A DNA stretch of 40,070 nt, taken from positions 1 to 40,070 of the IMG/VR virus record IMGVR_UViG_3300031711_000011, one strand, 5' to 3'. Every line of letters begins with the position of its first letter. The stretch's first letter is position 1. This stretch comes from a virus. The notes below the pieces were generated by a model. The model did no database searches. It was not told the DNA's origin and saw nothing but the letters and a program-made list of their open reading frames with translations. Below are positions 2,004-12,917 of this stretch, piece by piece. The translations under genes were made by a program, and so were the position numbers.

Positions 2004-2550
2004 TGCGTGCCTCCTCGCCGGCGGCCGTTGGCGGGGCTTTCGGCTGCCACTTGCCCTGGCGCGAGGCCATGCCTTTGAGCGCCCAGTAAACGCGGTTGGC
2101 TTGCTTCAGCGTGCGGATCTGCGGGTTCTCGCGATTCGACAGCGGCGAACGCGGCGAGCGCAGCCAGGCATCGAGCTGTGCCTGACTCCAGCCCAGCAGA
2201 TCGCGCACGTAAATCACGCGGTCCAGGTCCTCAGCGGTGGCCAGCGTGATCTCGTTGGAACTGTTGCCGCGCCGGCCTTCCGTGCCGGCCTTGTGCGCGG
2301 CGTCGCGGTCCAGCCGGCGGCGCGGCGGCCGCGTGGCGGCGATGCCGAGCTGCCCCTGCGCGGTGTCGATGAGGTGCTGCGCCTCGCTCAGCGTCAGATC
2401 CTTGAAGCTGGCGATGGGCCGCTGCACCAGCATCTGCGCCCAGCCGATCCGCGCCTCACGCGTGGCCGGCTGCTGCGTGTGCGCGCAGAGCTGGCCGTAA
2501 AGCACCTGCAGGCGCTTCATCTGGCCGTCGCTGATGGAGTGACTCGTCAC
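1996..2550 (-). CDS. GemA/gp16-like phage regulatory protein
   Basis: A GTG start at 2550 is chosen because it overlaps the upstream stop (GTGA) and gives a compact 184-aa protein; the open frame extends further upstream only as non-coding-looking sequence. Residues 5-69 include MKRLQVLYGQLCAHT and a TREARIGWA segment, then SFKDLTLSEAQHLIDTA. Residues about 98-160 contain RDLLGWSQAQLDAWLR and a TLKQANRVYWALKGM helix. The two-helical-module layout resembles GemA (Mu gp16, DUF1018), which modulates host gene expression and DNA supercoiling in Mu. The assignment rests on motif resemblance and operon position and is tentative. Confidence 0.6.
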   Translation of the reverse strand: MTSHSISDGQMKRLQVLYGQLCAHTQQPATREARIGWAQMLVQRPIASFKDLTLSEAQHLIDTAQGQLGIAATRPPRRRLDRDAAHKAGTEGRRGNSSNEITLATAEDLDRVIYVRDLLGWSQAQLDAWLRSPRSPLSNRENPQIRTLKQANRVYWALKGMASRQGKWQPKAPPTAAGEEARNG

Positions 2551-2747
2551 GATTGCTTTCTCTTCGGCCTTCCCGGCGCGCGCCGCGCATCCTCGCCGCA
2601 GTGCTGACAGATCAGCGGCTTGGGAGGTCTGCGGCGCGCCCGCCAATCCTTCACCTTGCAAATCGGCGAGCAGAAGCGCCGCGTGCCTTCCACCGGGTTG
2701 TGGCACTCCGGCCACTGGCACTGCCGGTGATATTCCTCGGTGGTCAC
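2547..2747 (-). CDS. Small zinc-finger-like protein, 66 aa
   Basis: GTG 2747 is preferred: it forms a GTGA overlap with the preceding stop and has GGAGAG five bases upstream. Upstream in-frame GTG 2813 would give 88 aa but would overlap the previous gene deeply. The protein has CQWPECHNP, RRFCSPIC and CQHCGED clusters, enough for one or two zinc sites, and a basic C-terminus (RRAPGRPKRKQS). Nucleic-acid binding is a reasonable inference, but no named family is assigned. Confidence 0.7.
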   Translation of the reverse strand: MTTEEYHRQCQWPECHNPVEGTRRFCSPICKVKDWRARRRPPKPLICQHCGEDARRAPGRPKRKQS

Positions 2748-2995
2748 TTGCGCTCTCCAACGCCCTGCTGCTTGCCATTCCCTAATTGCTTCAAGTTTGG
2801 CGACGCGTAACACGAGTCGCCATCCGCGTCCGTCACCTTGAGAAAAGCCACTTCAACCTTCGCCGTCTCGATGACCTGAGAGGCTACTTTAGCGATCGCC
2901 AGCGCGCGGTCGATCTCCATCGGCTTGTCGTCGTCTTTCAGCGCTTCGATGGTCTCAAAGAGATGGTTGCGCAGATCGTCCATCGTGTTCTTCAT
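2744..2995 (-). CDS. Small hypothetical early protein, 83 aa
   Basis: ATG 2995 is preceded by GGAGGAAGG four bases upstream and overlaps the stop of the HNH gene (ATGA). The first 60 residues are amphipathic helical sequence (MDDLRNHLFETIEALKDDD, then IDRALAIAKVASQVIETAKV). The length and helical pattern resemble small phage proteins that accompany HNH or replication genes. No catalytic residue or known domain is seen. It is a well-supported gene of unknown function. Confidence 0.75.
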   Translation of the reverse strand: MKNTMDDLRNHLFETIEALKDDDKPMEIDRALAIAKVASQVIETAKVEVAFLKVTDADGDSCYASPNLKQLGNGKQQGVGERK

Positions 2996-3816
2996 GCAGC
3001 CTTCCTCCGTTTGGTCGCCATGGCGCGTATCACGCCTTTCAGGTAAATGACCTCCTTCAGATCCGGAGGCAGGTTGTGAATTGTGTTGCGCCGCATCATC
3101 TCGGCATCGGTGATCAGTTCCAGGTTCTCGATTGCGCAGTTGCTGCGGTCGCCGTTCTTGAAAACAACCTTGTGTCCAGCGGGGATCGGGCCGCGATGCT
3201 CTTGCCAAGTGCGGTGATGCAGGAGCGGCCAGATGTCCTTGTGCCATCCTGCCGGCAGCCCGTTGATGCGCTCACGGATTTTCACGCGCAGGAAGCCTTC
3301 CGGATCAGCAACCACGGAACCGACTGGGTGCCACAGCTTCTCTGCAAAGCCGCTGCGGTTGCCTTTCTTGAACTGCGTTTCGCTCATTCGGCCGACGCTG
3401 TAGCCGGGGCGCCGCTGCCCCTTGTTCGCGGGAACGTGGCCTTTCGGAAAGCGATTCCCTTTTCCTGATTGCGCGAGCCCAGCTCCGCACGCGGCCGCGC
3501 ACACCTCCATATATGCGTCGCTCTTCTTGAGTCCCATCTTCCCGGCCTGCTGGTATACCTTTCCACGCGAGCGGCCCAGCAGCTTCGCGATTTCGTCAGT
3601 GCTCGTCTCTGCGTACATGCGCTTCAGCGTGGTCCGTTCTTGTTCACTCCAGCGCTCGCGTTCAAATTTCCGCGGCCGCAGATCGAGCTCCCGCTGCATC
3701 TTGCGCGCGGTGCTTTCCTCGCAGCCGAGGCGCGCAGCGATCGCCGCCGGCTCCTCGCCTTCCAGCGTGAGCCAGGTCAGCCGCTCGATGCCGCGCTTCG
3801 TCCACTGAAACATCAC
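2992..3816 (-). CDS. HNH endonuclease with N-terminal HTH region
   Basis: The start is GTG 3816 or ATG 3813, both served by GGAGG upstream; the ATG overlaps the previous stop. Residues 1-95 are helical with two HTH-like stretches (EPAAIAARLGCEESTARKMQ; TSTDEIAKLLGRSRGKVYQQ). A Lys/Gly-rich linker with repeated F-KG and NKG motifs follows (FPKGHVPANKGQRRPG, MSETQFKKGNRSG). The C-terminal nuclease region, about residues 190-240, has LLHHRTWQEHRGPIPAGH and FKNGDRSNCAIENLEL, the HNH_3 pattern with H-H, N and N-x-x-N-L. Such phage enzymes may act in replication, packaging or as homing-type nucleases. The gene is in line with its neighbours, not inserted into another gene. Confidence 0.85.
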   Translation of the reverse strand: MMFQWTKRGIERLTWLTLEGEEPAAIAARLGCEESTARKMQRELDLRPRKFERERWSEQERTTLKRMYAETSTDEIAKLLGRSRGKVYQQAGKMGLKKSDAYMEVCAAACGAGLAQSGKGNRFPKGHVPANKGQRRPGYSVGRMSETQFKKGNRSGFAEKLWHPVGSVVADPEGFLRVKIRERINGLPAGWHKDIWPLLHHRTWQEHRGPIPAGHKVVFKNGDRSNCAIENLELITDAEMMRRNTIHNLPPDLKEVIYLKGVIRAMATKRRKAA

Positions 3817-4082
3817 GCGTTCCTCCTCGCGATCGCGCGCTGCTGGTGCGGCGTCAGAAGTGACGCGGCCGGCTTGACGCCGCTGGCGATCATCCGATCG
3901 ACGATTGCCTGCAACCGCGGCTTGTTAATGCTGCTCAGCGTGTCACCCTGTTCGTAATAACTGACGTAGGGATGCTCTTCGCAGAGCGCGGTGTTGATCT
4001 CATAAGCCGCGCAGCCGGAAAGCCGGCGGCCCTTGATCGCGTCCTGAAAATGCTTCAGCTTTATGCTTTCGTCGCTGCTCAT
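3813..4082 (-). CDS. Hypothetical early protein, 89 aa
   Basis: ATG 4082 has GGAGG four bases upstream and overlaps the previous stop (ATGA). The protein begins MSSDESIKLKHFQDAIKGRR, has two cysteines that do not form a clear metal site, and ends in a basic PHQQRAIARRNA tail. Its first half suggests a short helical domain. No family is recognised. Tight coupling on both sides supports expression as part of the early operon. Confidence 0.7.
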   Translation of the reverse strand: MSSDESIKLKHFQDAIKGRRLSGCAAYEINTALCEEHPYVSYYEQGDTLSSINKPRLQAIVDRMIASGVKPAASLLTPHQQRAIARRNA

Positions 4083-4336
4083 CGCGCCTCCAGCCGGCTT
4101 TTCGGGCCGCGCTTTTTCAGGAAGAACTCGGCGCGCTCGCCGTCGTCGACAAAGTGGCAAAGGCAATGGCAGTTTTTCGCCGCGCACGAGCTGTGGCTGT
4201 CGCTGGCGCAATAGCTCGATCGCCACTCCGGATCGGCCGTTGCGCGCAGGCACCGTTTCGTCGGAGTTGAATACGCGCCCACGGAGTCGCGCAGATGCTG
4301 CACCTGGCGGTCGAAGTAGATGGAGAACTGCGTCAT
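4079..4336 (-). CDS. Cys/His-rich small protein, 85 aa
   Basis: ATG 4336 overlaps the upstream stop (ATGA). The centre of the protein is packed with metal-ligand residues: SSYCASDSHSSC, then KNCHCLCHF. This could hold one or two zinc ions. The C-terminus is basic (FFLKKRGPKSRLEAR), which fits nucleic-acid contact. It belongs to the set of small Cys-rich proteins spread through this operon. The exact fold and role are unknown. Confidence 0.7.
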   Translation of the reverse strand: MTQFSIYFDRQVQHLRDSVGAYSTPTKRCLRATADPEWRSSYCASDSHSSCAAKNCHCLCHFVDDGERAEFFLKKRGPKSRLEAR

Positions 4337-4599
4337 GCCGTCCTCCGCTCCGCGCCGGCGGCGCCGACGCTGGCCACCGGCTTGCGCGGTGGCAGGCCGT
4401 TGCGCAGCAGCTCGCGATTGACCAGCATCTCGCGGATATCCGCGCGCCGGATGCCGTGGCACCGGAGACCTTCCCAGATGTACTGCGCGCCGATGCCGAT
4501 CTCGGCCGCGGCGTCCTTGACGCAACCATCGTGGCGCAGGACGCACGCGAGGAAGTAACGGAAACGGAAATTGCGAATGGCTTGCCGGTACCGGGTCAT
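4333..4599 (-). CDS. Fis-like helix-turn-helix regulator, 88 aa
   Basis: ATG 4599 is chosen for its AAGGAAG ribosome site and its ATGA overlap with the receiver gene. Residues 15-50 (FLACVLRHDGCVKDAAAEIG followed by IGAQYIWEGLRCHGI) match the Fis/HTH_8 pattern: a first helix, HDG turn, AA-x-x-IGI and a recognition helix. Such domains bend DNA and often act with activators. A short Pro/Ala tail follows. In Mu the middle and late activators Mor and C are small HTH proteins. This protein could fill a comparable role, but it lacks the length of Mor/C, so the role is open. Confidence 0.7.
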   Translation of the reverse strand: MTRYRQAIRNFRFRYFLACVLRHDGCVKDAAAEIGIGAQYIWEGLRCHGIRRADIREMLVNRELLRNGLPPRKPVASVGAAGAERRTA

Positions 4600-5033
4600 G
4601 CCAGCTTCCTTTCCTCGGCCGAGGGCGCGGCCACCACAGCCGGCAGCTTGCGCACGCTGCCCTTGCGCGGGCCGCGCTTCCGCGCCGACATAATCTTGAT
4701 CCGCTCCAGCAGCTCCTGCGGCTGGCACTTTTTCTTCGACAGCAGCGCGTCGGCCGCGTGGAGCTGATCCGCCATCTTCACCGGGTCGCCGAGCAGAATC
4801 ATGGGTACGTGGTGGGCGATCTGTTTCAGTTGGCGCACCAGCTTGTTGCCGCCGGCCGGCAGCGCCCAGTCAACCAGCGCCAGTTCCACCAGGTGCTCCG
4901 AATAGAACGCGATGGCTTCCTGCGCGGTGCGCGCCGCCAGCACGCGGAAACCGTTGGTGGAAAGCATGAATGAGAGCACCGACAGGTCGTTCTCGTTCGC
5001 GTCGACGCAAAGGATAATTTTCTTGGGTCTCAT
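4596..5033 (-). CDS. CheY-like response-regulator receiver protein, 145 aa
   Basis: ATG 5033 overlaps the previous stop (ATGA). Residues 5-117 form a receiver fold: IILCVDANEND (D11), ELALVDWALP with the phosphoacceptor-position D55, HVPMILLGDP, and LLSKK with the conserved-position K100. Two of the five key receiver residues are altered. The second acid of the N-terminal pair is A12, and the Thr/Ser switch position is G82. Phosphorylation may therefore be weak or absent. After the domain comes a basic tail (SARKRGPRKGSVRKL) that could bind nucleic acid. No output domain or kinase is nearby. It may interfere with host two-component signalling or sense host state; this is inference. Confidence 0.85.
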   Translation of the reverse strand: MRPKKIILCVDANENDLSVLSFMLSTNGFRVLAARTAQEAIAFYSEHLVELALVDWALPAGGNKLVRQLKQIAHHVPMILLGDPVKMADQLHAADALLSKKKCQPQELLERIKIMSARKRGPRKGSVRKLPAVVAAPSAEERKLA

Positions 5034-5365
5034 AGCGTCCCTTTCTGTTGTTGCAACTTCTTTGCCTTCATCTCGCGTTTGCGGCGCCGGGCCGCGGCCT
5101 TCGCCGATCGCTGCCGCCGCACGAATGTCTTTGCTGCGCCGTGTGGATCCGCGAGGAAGCGTTCGCAACGACGGGTGCTGCTGATAACCCGTCCGGTCTT
5201 TCGCGCCGCGCGCACATCTTCAAGAGTGAGAACGTCGCGAATACCGAGATAGCTCAGCGTGCGGCAGAGACTGCCCACCAGAAGCATCAGCGCATCGCGG
5301 CTTAATTTCTCCATCTCCACCTGGACAAGTTCGCGCGGACCTTCGACAAAATTGGGCAGAATCAT
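5030..5365 (-). CDS. Hypothetical basic-tailed early protein, 111 aa
   Basis: ATG 5365 overlaps the upstream stop (ATGA). The N-terminal half (MILPNFVEGPRELVQVEMEK, then ALMLLVGSLCRTLSYLGI) is helical and partly hydrophobic. From about residue 75 the sequence is strongly basic (RRQRSAKAAARRRKREMKAK). It is likely to contact nucleic acid, but no domain is recognised. It lies directly before the CheY-like gene, which may point to a shared task. Confidence 0.7.
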   Translation of the reverse strand: MILPNFVEGPRELVQVEMEKLSRDALMLLVGSLCRTLSYLGIRDVLTLEDVRAARKTGRVISSTRRCERFLADPHGAAKTFVRRQRSAKAAARRRKREMKAKKLQQQKGTL

Positions 5366-5688
5366 GCGGTGGCCGCCTTTTCCTGTTTCGCGCCTTCGCT
5401 CTTTAGTTTGAGTAGCCGGTCGTACTTCTCCTGCAACGCCTGGCGCACGTCCGCGGGCTTGCCTTCTTCCGTGGCCACATTCATCTGCGCGGCAGTCACG
5501 GCGAGCAGGTAATTGACCCGGCTACCGTAGACGCGGCCGGCGCGGGCCGTGGCGTATACCTCCGCGCGCACCGTGCAGCTCACCATGTCCCAGTGGCGCA
5601 GGCACATCAGGTGAAACCGCGGGATCCTCGCCGTGCAGCCGATCGCGGCGCACTGTGTGCTGAGATCGGGCTTAAAGTTGGACTGCAT
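5362..5688 (-). CDS. Hypothetical protein with Cys/His cluster, 108 aa
   Basis: ATG 5688 is used because it forms a TGATG junction with the preceding gene; the longer upstream frame is unlikely. Near the N-terminus are CAAIGC and HLMCLRHW segments that could bind zinc. The remainder is helical, with VNYLLAVTAAQMNVA and a coiled-coil-like ALQEKYDRLLKLKSEGAK end. It is another member of the small Cys-rich set of this operon. Function unknown. Confidence 0.7.
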   Translation of the reverse strand: MQSNFKPDLSTQCAAIGCTARIPRFHLMCLRHWDMVSCTVRAEVYATARAGRVYGSRVNYLLAVTAAQMNVATEEGKPADVRQALQEKYDRLLKLKSEGAKQEKAATA

Positions 5689-9548: not shown

Positions 9549-9805
9549 TTACCGCCTTCGGTGGAGGCCACGCGCATTTGCGGCTGGGGCTGCGAGAGGA
9601 TCTGGCGGACGCGGCCGGAGTGGAACGCCACGAATACCGTGGCGGCCACCCAGAGCAGCATGAGCGCGATGCAAAAGATGAGGGTGTAATTGGCGCAGCG
9701 GCCAACGTGCCGGGCCAGCATCAGCAAACGCCGCTGCCGCACCCAGCTTTCGTAGCGCACGGCCGGCGTTCCGGGTGCGAATGTGTAACGCGAAGTTGCA
9801 TTCAT
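9545..9805 (-). CDS. Single-pass membrane protein, 86 aa
   Basis: ATG 9805 overlaps the stop of the ATPase gene (ATGA). One clear transmembrane helix is present at about residues 40-62 (YTLIFCIALMLLWVAATVFV), preceded by a basic segment (RQRRLLMLARHVGR). The inside-positive rule would put the N-terminus in the cytoplasm. It is the only obvious membrane protein of the early operon. A role in superinfection exclusion or membrane targeting of an early complex is possible but not shown. Confidence 0.7.
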   Translation of the reverse strand: MNATSRYTFAPGTPAVRYESWVRQRRLLMLARHVGRCANYTLIFCIALMLLWVAATVFVAFHSGRVRQILSQPQPQMRVASTEGGK

Positions 9806-10827
9806 GCGACAGCCTCCGTTGTCTCAGGAACCGGTTGCGGGGTTGCGGTCTGCGCCTCGGCGCGGACCTGATTGAGGGCGTTGGTGAGGGTGCGGACATT
9901 GATGTAGGCGCGGCCGTTCTCAAACGCATCGCGCGTGGTGGCGGCGGCGATGAGCTTCTCTATGACCGCCTCAGCCTGGCGCGCGGGGCGGCCGGCGAGC
10001 AGCTCGCCGATCTCGCGCTCGACGATGGCGCGGGCCTCGGCGCGATCGAGCCCCGGCAGCCGGACCTTGTCGATAATCCGGCTATTCCACTGCTCCAACG
10101 TGGCCGAGAACTCGTCAAACTTCTTTTTGAGATCGTGCGAGCCGGCCAGGAGCAGCGAGAAGTGAGGCGGCTGATCGAGCAGCTCGCGCAGAGTCTCAAA
10201 ACACTCGATGGAGAGGTGCTGCGCCTCATCCACGGCGAGCAGCACACGGTTGGCGCGGTAGTCGAAGCGGATGCTCTGGAGCATGGGATCGATGTCGTTG
10301 CCGGCGCGGCAGCCCAGGGCGATGGAGACGCGGCGCACCAGGTCGCGGGGACGGATGCCCTGGCGCGCGTAAACGTAGAAGGCGCGGGCTCCGCCCTCGT
10401 CGGCGAGCTGCTCGCGGTTGAGGCGCTGCACCTCATGCTCAAGGACAAAGGTTTTCTGCGATCCGGGCGGCGCGTAAAGCATGTACGCCACCGGCCGCGG
10501 CAGCAGCTTGCGGAAGGTCTCGCGGATGAGGCGGACGTTGGCGGTCTCGTACAGCTCGCCCAGGATGAAAGCAGGCGCGCCGATGGGATGCGCGTCCATG
10601 AATTCCGCGGCGGCGCGCTGGATGTTGCGCCCGGTGCCGCCGACCTTCTCGTACGTTCCCGCGAGAAAAAAACCAAGCGCCGACTTCGAATAGTTGATGC
10701 GCCGCGCAAAGTCCGGCACGGACAAGCCCGTCCGGGAAAGGTAGTCGCGGATCCGGTCAGCGACCGCCGTGTTGACGCCGGCTTCCGCTGCCAGAGCTGC
10801 GCGGTTGCCTTGGGTGTCGATCTTCAC
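9802..10827 (-). CDS. MuB-like transposition ATPase with N-terminal HTH, 341 aa
   Basis: This is the AAA+ partner of the transposase: it binds DNA, selects target sites and delivers them to the transposase. Residues 35-58 form an HTH (GLSVPDFARRINYSKSALGF). The Walker A-position loop is APPGSQKT (residues 119-126), slightly different from the canonical GxxGxGKT. Walker B is VLLAVDEAQ (D200, E201), and sensor-like LLLAGSHD follows. The length is close to that of Mu B (312 aa). The gene overlaps the transposase stop by ATGA, as expected for coupled synthesis. Confidence 0.9.
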   Translation of the reverse strand: MKIDTQGNRAALAAEAGVNTAVADRIRDYLSRTGLSVPDFARRINYSKSALGFFLAGTYEKVGGTGRNIQRAAAEFMDAHPIGAPAFILGELYETANVRLIRETFRKLLPRPVAYMLYAPPGSQKTFVLEHEVQRLNREQLADEGGARAFYVYARQGIRPRDLVRRVSIALGCRAGNDIDPMLQSIRFDYRANRVLLAVDEAQHLSIECFETLRELLDQPPHFSLLLAGSHDLKKKFDEFSATLEQWNSRIIDKVRLPGLDRAEARAIVEREIGELLAGRPARQAEAVIEKLIAAATTRDAFENGRAYINVRTLTNALNQVRAEAQTATPQPVPETTEAVA

Positions 10828-12917
10828 TTCAGGTCCTCCAGGATGTCGGCTGCGATCTGGGTGGCCGTGCGCGGGGCCACGGCGTTGTGGTTGGGGCGCA
10901 GGCGGGGTTTGCGCTGGGTGATGACGGGCGAAGTGTTGGAGGGAAGCTGAAGGCGCGAGAAGAGCATCTCCTCGCCATTGCGGGCGCCGGCCGCGCGGGC
11001 TTCACCGGCGATGGCTGCGATGGTGAGCCGCGTGGCTTTTTCAAGGCCGCGGCGCAGCTCCATGCTCTGGCCGATCTCGGCCTGGACATCGGCGTCGTTG
11101 GGAGCAAATCGGGTGAATGCCTGCGCCACCAGCCAGGCCAGCGGGCGGCCGTCCAGGTCGCAGGCCACGGCGTGCTCGGGATCGTGCGCGTCGTAGGCGA
11201 CGAGGATCTCCGACTCGTTGAGGTGGTGCATGGAGGCCCACGCCTGGCGGTCTTCAGGCTGCGGCGTGTAGCGGCGCTTGTTGAGGCGGACGCCGCAGGA
11301 GTCGACCTTGCAGCGCTTGTACTCAGCCATCAGCAGCGCCAGCGCGGTGAAGTCCGGGGCGGGCTTCTGGTTGGGATTGGGGTTGTCGGCGAAGACTTGA
11401 TTGGGGCTGGCGCCGTCCATGCCTTCGCCGGTATGAGGATGATTGTTGTAGTCCGAGATCCACTGCAGGCAGCCGAGGATGAAGGTGCTGGCCGGCATGT
11501 GGCCGGACTCCGCGACGCGGCCGCGCTTCATGAGCCAGCGGTGGCGGCTCATGGCTTCCTCAGTGGCCTCAGGGCGCGTGAACGGCGTGCCGCTGGTGTA
11601 ATTCGCGCCCAGCGAGTCATAGCCGGTGTGCTCTGTGCGGAAGAAGCGCTCAATGCCTTTCGATTGCGGGTGGCGCGGGATGCAGTGAGTGACGCCGGCG
11701 CCGATGCGGGCGATGAAGCCGGTCTCCTCGATGGGGGCTATCTGCTCCCATCCCATCCGCGAGAAAGTGAAGCCGCTGGCCGCGCCCTTGGCCACTTTCT
11801 TATAGTCCTTGCCGTTGTCGACATAAAAAAGATCGGGAGGACCGAAGTCGATGACCGCGCGCAGGATGGTGGCATTGATGGCGCTCGATCCGCCGAACCA
11901 TGCCCAGCTTGCGCCCACGATCTTGCGGCTGCGGTAATCCATGAACGCGGAGAGCACCACGCGCACCGGCGCGCCCAGCGGCTGATCGGTAAACACATCG
12001 TTGGCGACTTCGCGATCGTGGATCATCAAATCCCCAACCCAAATTTGGTTGGCGTAGACATCGGTGTAGCCGCGGATGAGGTACGGCGCCATGCGCTCCC
12101 GGTACGCGCGCTTGCCTTCACGGGCCAGGGCGGAGATGGCGGGAGAGACGGCCTGGGGGAGGAACGCGCGGACGGTTTCGTAGCTCGGCAGATCGTTGGG
12201 ATCGAGGCCGAGAGTTTCAGCCTGCGCGCGGATCTGCTGCCAGATGACGGAAACGCTTTGCCGGCTGCCGCGCAGCTTTACGCTGTCACCGCGTGTGTCC
12301 ACATCGCCCAGCCAGAGATACGCGGCCAGCAGCGCCGCTTTGCGATTGCGCGCGAACCATCTGCTCTGGCCCTTGTCGCGGCGGATGCGATCGGCGAGGG
12401 CCGGAAAGCCGCCCTGGCGATAGCGGGCCAGCCAGCGCTGAAGAGTGCGCGCGGTGAGGCCGTCATTGCGCTGCTCCAGTATCCATTCCGTGAGGCGCGC
12501 CTGGCTGTCGAGCGGGCGGCCGTCCGGCAGGCGCAGATGCAGGAAGGCGCGCGGATCGGCGGCGAAGTCAATCAAGGGTTGGATAGTGGCGTTGCGCTCG
12601 GCGGCCTGCTGCTGCGCCTCGGGATCTTTCAAAAGGACGGGATAAGAGGACACTGCGGAGATTCCTGAGAAGAGCGGGCCGAGCGGCGCCATCGGGAGGA
12701 TTGTTGCCGGCTGCGATGGCGCCGCTGTTCTGGGGAGGGAGCTTAGAAGGTATTCGCGCTGCGTGCGGCCGGAGGTGCGCGGCGCTTCGCGAGAGATCAC
12801 TTCACCCGAGGCCGCTTTGGCTCTCAGCCAGCGCTCGGTCCAGCCGGTGCGGCGGATTGTTTCCTCCGCCGAGATCCAGTCCGGCGCGACCAGGGCGAGC
12901 TGCGAGAGCGCGGTCAT
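10824..12917 (-). CDS. MuA-type DDE transposase, 697 aa
   Basis: This enzyme cuts and joins phage ends to target DNA for integration and replicative transposition. An N-terminal winged-helix region covers about residues 12-55 (AEETIRRTGWTERWLRAKAA). HTH-type sequence follows around 130-180 (TARTLQRWLARYRQGGFPAL). The catalytic core has D296 in IWVGDLMI, D367 in FYVDNGKDYK and E423 in GIERFFRTEHTG, the DDE triad. A beta-barrel-type region (KRRYTPQPEDRQAW) and a basic C-terminal tail come after it. The size is close to MuA (663 aa). The start ATG 12917 overlaps the stop of the triple-HTH gene (ATGA). Confidence 0.95.
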   Translation of the reverse strand: MTALSQLALVAPDWISAEETIRRTGWTERWLRAKAASGEVISREAPRTSGRTQREYLLSSLPRTAAPSQPATILPMAPLGPLFSGISAVSSYPVLLKDPEAQQQAAERNATIQPLIDFAADPRAFLHLRLPDGRPLDSQARLTEWILEQRNDGLTARTLQRWLARYRQGGFPALADRIRRDKGQSRWFARNRKAALLAAYLWLGDVDTRGDSVKLRGSRQSVSVIWQQIRAQAETLGLDPNDLPSYETVRAFLPQAVSPAISALAREGKRAYRERMAPYLIRGYTDVYANQIWVGDLMIHDREVANDVFTDQPLGAPVRVVLSAFMDYRSRKIVGASWAWFGGSSAINATILRAVIDFGPPDLFYVDNGKDYKKVAKGAASGFTFSRMGWEQIAPIEETGFIARIGAGVTHCIPRHPQSKGIERFFRTEHTGYDSLGANYTSGTPFTRPEATEEAMSRHRWLMKRGRVAESGHMPASTFILGCLQWISDYNNHPHTGEGMDGASPNQVFADNPNPNQKPAPDFTALALLMAEYKRCKVDSCGVRLNKRRYTPQPEDRQAWASMHHLNESEILVAYDAHDPEHAVACDLDGRPLAWLVAQAFTRFAPNDADVQAEIGQSMELRRGLEKATRLTIAAIAGEARAAGARNGEEMLFSRLQLPSNTSPVITQRKPRLRPNHNAVAPRTATQIAADILEDLK

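Follow-up and report, generated by a model that had tools for sequence, protein, structure and literature searches.

The window analysed here is the whole 40,070-nucleotide stretch of the virus record IMGVR_UViG_3300031711_000011, and it raises the question of what a small receiver-like protein, encoded on its own in an early operon, can do for a phage. The carrier is Mu-like: adjacent genes for a MuA-like transposase (10824..12917, minus strand) and a MuB-like ATPase (9802..10827, minus strand) lie in the early operon, both named by eye from their sequences, and homologous pairs, with MuB beside MuA, are found in 14 related loci. The receiver gene (protein P0001, 145 amino acids; 4596..5033, minus strand) belongs to the same operon, is preceded by the ribosome-binding site AAAGGGA, and shares ATGA overlaps with both neighbouring open reading frames (ORFs). 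Its start overlaps an upstream ORF of 111 amino acids (5030..5365, minus strand), for which profile searches found no family match, and its stop overlaps the gene of an 88-residue Fis-like helix-turn-helix (HTH) protein (4333..4599, minus strand), a candidate partner whose own stop overlaps the following ORF in turn. The ribosome-binding site and the ATGA overlaps, together with syntenic homologues in six of the 16 loci that were fetched through MuA as anchor, establish that the receiver gene is real.

The sequence-only reading had described this gene product as a degenerate CheY-like receiver with a basic tail, which keeps D55 and K100 but has Ala in place of one Mg2+-binding acid and Gly at the Thr/Ser switch; these assignments proved correct, the residues being D11, A12, D55, G82 and K100. 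Over residues 7-112, the protein falls inside the receiver family PF00072, scoring 36.6 bits (E 5.5e-9) where the cut-off is 30.2, and a phmmer search of the PDB matches it to PhoB receivers (E 5.6e-7). The AF2 model has the (beta-alpha)5 receiver fold at a mean pLDDT of 87.6, with alpha4 unformed and the C-terminal 25 residues forming a low-confidence tail, and receivers head the list when this model is aligned structurally with VIA-align (Z 18-20). Pfam and AF2 reveal no fused output domain on the chain, which consists only of the receiver and the 25-residue tail, the HTH ORF being separate. The net charge is +3 at the N-terminus, -1 in the core and +7 in the tail.

Phosphotransfer by a functional receiver relies on five residues (the two acids of the DD pair, the phosphoacceptor D, the T/S switch and K), and the window protein has lost two of them. 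The second Mg2+-binding acid is replaced by A12 (4998..5000, minus strand) and the Thr/Ser switch position is occupied by G82 (4788..4790, minus strand); the phosphoacceptor position D55 (4869..4871, minus strand; codon gac) and the active-site Lys K100 (4734..4736, minus strand) are kept. Judged by its sequence, the protein is a pseudo-receiver, defined as a receiver in which one or more of these five positions lack the required residue (PMC12632262). It is not an aspartate-less receiver (ALR), as D55 is present. Acidobacteria are rich in ALRs (PMC4395418), and phages are mentioned neither in that survey nor in the pseudo-receiver review (PMC12632262).

A single-sequence search of viral contigs gave no match, and the relatives came instead by way of the MuA-anchored loci and then of a profile. 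In the six MuA-found loci, the homologue occupies the same place in the early operon and is 32-53% identical to the window protein. All seven sequences, the window protein included, start with MRPKK, and past the last helix each has either ARKRGP(R/K) or ARRHGPRK. They differ at the phosphoacceptor position, where the residues are D, K, G, V, R, D and E. The profile scan of viral contigs placed the family in 50 viral loci, a few of them duplicates, and Mu-like viral loci with the receiver number 20 in all. Some receiver-bearing contigs are without Mu genes; these are probably tailed phages, an assignment to which a match to TerL, itself a broad family, in 15 of 25 of them lends support short of proof. 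Several phage copies score below the PF00072 cut-off or have no Pfam match, so that annotation misses the family. The sequence-only reading had held that a lone receiver is rare in phages. This agrees with the single weak match among 50,697 isolate-phage records, but not with the 50 viral loci, nor with the other phage receivers listed in BFVD. Receivers of other phages (Alteromonas phage V22 CDS-30, Myoviridae sp. ctrnx29 and the uncultured Caudovirales 'CheY FOG') have the same receiver fold and are distant from the window protein, at 14-19% identity in structural alignments. Plasmids yielded matches only to ordinary two-component proteins, and anti-phage defence libraries only marginal ones (E 0.003 and worse).

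The family is lineage-specific and also has a chromosomal member. A genome scan returned 163 matches, and the 80 that were kept all lie in Acidobacteriaceae-type genomes; the window protein is up to 72% identical to these host copies over the aligned stretch, and the window phage genes are absent from all 80 kept loci. The host homologue is present, usually as a single copy, in 141 of 150 sampled genomes of the family Acidobacteriaceae. Host copies score 64-67 bits against PF00072, and most share a neighbourhood: about 60 of the 80 loci have a PhzC-PhzF (PhzF-like) gene upstream, and 53 encode a PIN/TRAM protein downstream. The locus L087:6646-9640 is an example, in which the receiver lies between these two genes, an order seen in most of the Acidobacteriaceae loci that were examined. 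Among the conserved neighbours there is no conspicuous histidine kinase. The host homologue is a core, stand-alone receiver of the Acidobacteriaceae (MRPKK...ARKRGPRKG; e.g. L092, L145 and L087), with which the window protein agrees in fold, length and terminal motifs. Both have Gly at the switch position, which is found in 55 of the 80 host copies, and alpha4 is missing from the host model as well as from the phage model. These two features are therefore not the result of degeneration in the phage, and G82, which had been taken as a mark of degeneracy, is indeed present but is shared with most host homologues. In contrast to most mobile copies, the core receiver has retained DD, D55 and K in the majority of species, and unlike the window gene it has a conserved chromosomal neighbourhood and no ATGA-coupled HTH neighbour.

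A third setting is provided by conjugative elements, whose copies came from sampling weaker second copies in host genomes. Each of ten genomes holds one strong host copy, and some of them a clearly weaker second one. Some of the second copies (L205, L207 and L210) lack the terminal motifs and are response regulators of the ordinary kind. Six others (L174, L203, L204, L206, L208 and L209) belong to one element family, widespread in Acidobacteria, in which VirB-type genes stand before the receiver. At L209:8284-11125, for instance, a wholly degenerate copy follows directly after virB8 and precedes a C5-cytosine methylase gene, both of these neighbours being recognised by Pfam; the neighbours in the other conjugative-element loci match those of L209 by eye, as far as sequence extends. 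These receivers have lost the whole active site and have no Pfam match, but they start with MRPK or MKPK and end in LC(A/T)RKRGPRSAA. Two further copies look like parts of other integrated elements, one (L172) lying near an integrase and a HerA-type ATPase, the other (L173) near ParB-like and MazG-like ORFs; the integrase and the last two ORFs were named by eye. A survey of acidobacterial prophages had been proposed as a check, and it has uncovered a core host homologue with relatives in Mu-like phages, in other tailed phages and in conjugative elements. The window gene is no isolated oddity: it belongs to a family with a core receiver in the host and with relatives on mobile elements that are defective in phosphorylation.

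How far has the active site decayed in this family? The counts for mobile copies refer to 45 viral rows, which were compared with 80 host rows. D55 is lost in 30 of the former and ten of the latter, and at least one of the two acids of the DD pair, D and K is lost in 43 and 28, respectively. Host copies keep D11 in 68, D12 in 70, D55 in 70 and K100 in 64 of 80 rows; the corresponding numbers for Mu-like phage copies are 5, 1, 8 and 3 of 20. Position 12 is acidic in 73 of the 80 host copies and in four of the 20 Mu-phage copies (one D, three E). An independent-pairs test of D55 loss gave 2.7 for and 0.0 against, with p about 0.25 on few supported pairs.

These losses bear on two proposals, titration of a host kinase and sensing of the host's state, in which a phage receiver would take up phosphoryl groups and so drain or read the host signal. 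The window copy may allow residual phosphorylation, as it retains D11, D55 and K100, and two viral copies (L029 and L031) even keep DD, D and K complete. Set against this, the window protein itself has neither the second Mg2+-binding acid nor the switch residue, 43 of 45 viral rows have defects, and the conjugative-element copies have no active site at all and lie below Pfam detection. Purifying selection meanwhile acts on the rest of the protein. Neither titration nor sensing by phosphorylation finds support at the level of the family, and we regard such a role as very improbable.

Loss of the active site does not mean loss of function. Values of dN/dS between related phage copies are 0.14-0.27, indicative of purifying selection, and the codons of the tail motif vary synonymously, which shows that selection acts on the protein; together, these observations mark the phage copies as working proteins and not relics. 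A functionless passenger, kept by chance after capture, could account for the related Mu-like phages that do without the receiver (e.g. L006, L007, L009 and L014). It is scarcely credible in view of these dN/dS values, the conserved operon position and the recurrence of the gene in three kinds of mobile element.

What selection has kept are the two ends. The N-terminal motif MRPKK (residues 1-5; 5019..5033, minus strand) is near-invariant in phage, conjugative-element and host copies. The second basic motif, ARKRGPRK, follows alpha5 (residues 117-124; 4662..4685, minus strand); in 77 sequences, G121 and P122 are invariant and A117-R120 are at least 90% conserved. Within the phage copies, R2, P3, K5 and A117-P122 come near the top when positions are ordered by conservation, and the active-site positions come halfway down or below. 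Part of this conservation reflects ascertainment, as MRPKK seeded both scans and the C-terminal motif seeded the viral scan. The sets free of it are the MuA-found phages, described above, and the HMM-found genome copies (43 rows, three of them duplicates), which all keep both motifs or close variants. Two more specific readings of the C-terminus were rejected. The tail has no Pfam match to an AT-hook, nor any other recognised DNA-binding motif, and its core RGP differs from RGRP. A conserved ERRxA at the C-terminus of phage copies had suggested a ClpX-type degron, but the underlying bases are the ribosome-binding site (AGGAAG/GGAGGA) of the next gene together with its ATGA/GTGA overlap.

Our tentative answer to the opening question, to which we give a little less than an even chance, is that the window protein is a phosphorylation-independent homologue of the host receiver, which competes with this receiver, or takes its place, by means of a basic, putatively nucleic-acid-binding face. 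This reading draws on the homology, the synteny, the recurrence in mobile elements, the loss of phosphotransfer residues, the purifying selection and the conserved basic termini. Both termini, one where beta1 begins and the other where alpha5 ends, would be on the opposite side of the fold from the phosphorylation site, and since they point away from the active site, the two basic ends can form one surface. Binding of nucleic acid would be the simplest function for such a surface, although its target may be DNA, RNA or a protein. Made early from a translationally coupled operon, the protein of the mobile element would occupy the host protein's target or compete for it, or would mix with the host protein itself, while being deaf to the host phosphorylation signal; the host protein would thus be held or displaced at its targets during infection. 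An earlier suggestion, that of a DNA-binding pseudo-receiver, fares best among the original proposals: the pseudo-receiver part holds by definition (PMC12632262), and the predicted DNA binding is the best surviving option, since nowhere else is the family as conserved as at its two basic termini.

The same termini could serve contacts between proteins. A phage receiver may bind the partner of the host receiver, or form heterodimers with it, with the basic ends touching this partner and not nucleic acid. The close homology to the host protein fits such mimicry, as does the precedent of pseudo-receivers that act by hetero-interaction, e.g. WhiI/BldM (PMC12632262), and the termini would be conserved whatever their ligand. 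On the other hand, the alpha4 part of the usual dimer and partner surface is missing from both phage and host models, and the core diverges to about 30% between phages whereas the termini stay fixed, which suggests that the ends are the main interface. Mimicry at the protein level is a possibility to be taken seriously, albeit an unlikely one.

The adjoining HTH gene invites another explanation, namely that pseudo-receiver and HTH protein form a split regulator of phage promoters, regardless of the host protein. The window HTH protein has no Pfam match of its own, and a profile built from three homologues joins it to small Fis-like HTH proteins. In L005/L068, L048 and L062, an HTH gene directly adjoins the receiver in the same ATGA-coupled arrangement; it also does so in the unrelated, non-Mu phage L028, where the protein scores against HTH_8 at 3e-11, and it lies one to two genes further away in L002 and L003. 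Mu loci without the receiver have no HTH match, among the few with long enough flanks (L006, L007, L009 and L014). Yet the HTH gene is nearby in only about six of 21 Mu-like receiver phages and the pairing is absent from the conjugative elements, and we consider the split regulator improbable. Under our preferred reading of a phosphorylation-independent homologue, the co-translated HTH protein may lend promoter specificity in the window phage, most members of the family being without it.

Receiver folds without phosphotransfer residues are known from pseudo-receivers and atypical response regulators such as ChxR, HP1043, FrzS and BldM/WhiI (PMC12632262, PMC3960148), for which, as for the window protein, phosphorylation-independent working is to be expected. 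The window family differs from these in having no fused output domain, in its basic tails at both ends, and in occurring both on mobile elements and, as a core homologue, in the host. Pseudo-receivers as such are common. How bacterial pseudo-receivers switch remains a mystery (PMC12632262).

In its distribution, the family resembles the xenogeneic silencers H-NS/Sfh, Lsr2/CgpS, MvaT/Pmr and Rok, which likewise combine one core host protein with many phage and conjugative relatives, and have a basic C-terminus with an RG-containing motif (PMC7074111). It differs from them in its unrelated fold and in having neither a Q/RGR nor a winged-helix domain. The window protein is no member of the H-NS/Lsr2/MvaT/Rok family, as its sequence matches receivers throughout in Pfam and the PDB, bar a sub-threshold decarboxylase, and the likeness is offered solely as a works-like hypothesis. 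Extended to the host, it would make the core acidobacterial receiver a nucleoid-type or anti-mobile-element regulator, whose basic ends bind DNA and whose phosphorylation tunes this binding, and which phosphorylation-blind mobile copies escape or seize. We think this rather a long shot; if true, it would represent a receiver-fold analogue of the H-NS/Lsr2 systems.

The core host receiver, mostly intact, and dozens of naturally occurring variants on mobile elements now lend themselves to comparison. Loss of the active site with retention of two short basic motifs points to the working surface, which small mutations can put to the test. If mobile elements take the receiver gene time and again, the host protein probably controls something important to them. 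To our knowledge, the phage-host biology of the Acidobacteria phylum is almost unstudied.

How often the gene was taken was addressed with a receiver tree of few columns and many long branches. The L011 receiver is nested in the host radiation (five-row set, support 100/99). The majority of the remaining Mu-like copies form one long-branched clade apart from it, which makes at least two acquisitions or exchanges likely. The window copy falls near host sequences, and may be either a recent capture or a basal phage member. For a single capture by all Mu-like phages, the window and all Mu rows were tested as one clade. This grouping was rejected (p 3e-10), but it is over-strict in excluding viral rows without Mu genes that nest among the Mu rows. 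With fewer rows in the tree, a clade of the window, L011 and the core Mu rows was disfavoured (p 0.02).

Finally, several neighbours of the receiver gene deserve mention. A phrog_18063 protein is encoded at 5362-5688 (minus strand) in the window, one or two genes ahead of the receiver, and directly precedes the receiver in L011 and L013; because this neighbour recurs, this position in the early operon resembles a fixed slot. Two genes past the receiver, a Cys/His-rich ORF of 85 amino acids (4079-4336, minus strand) ends in KKRGPKSR, reminiscent of the receiver tail motif, and is the only other window protein with this pattern among those checked. Further along the early operon lies an HNH endonuclease with an N-terminal HTH region (2992-3816, minus strand; phrog_1891, 1.8e-47). 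A Cys-rich protein of 88 amino acids (2547-2813, minus strand), conserved across many related Mu-like phages, ends with the AT-hook-like sequence APGRPKRK.
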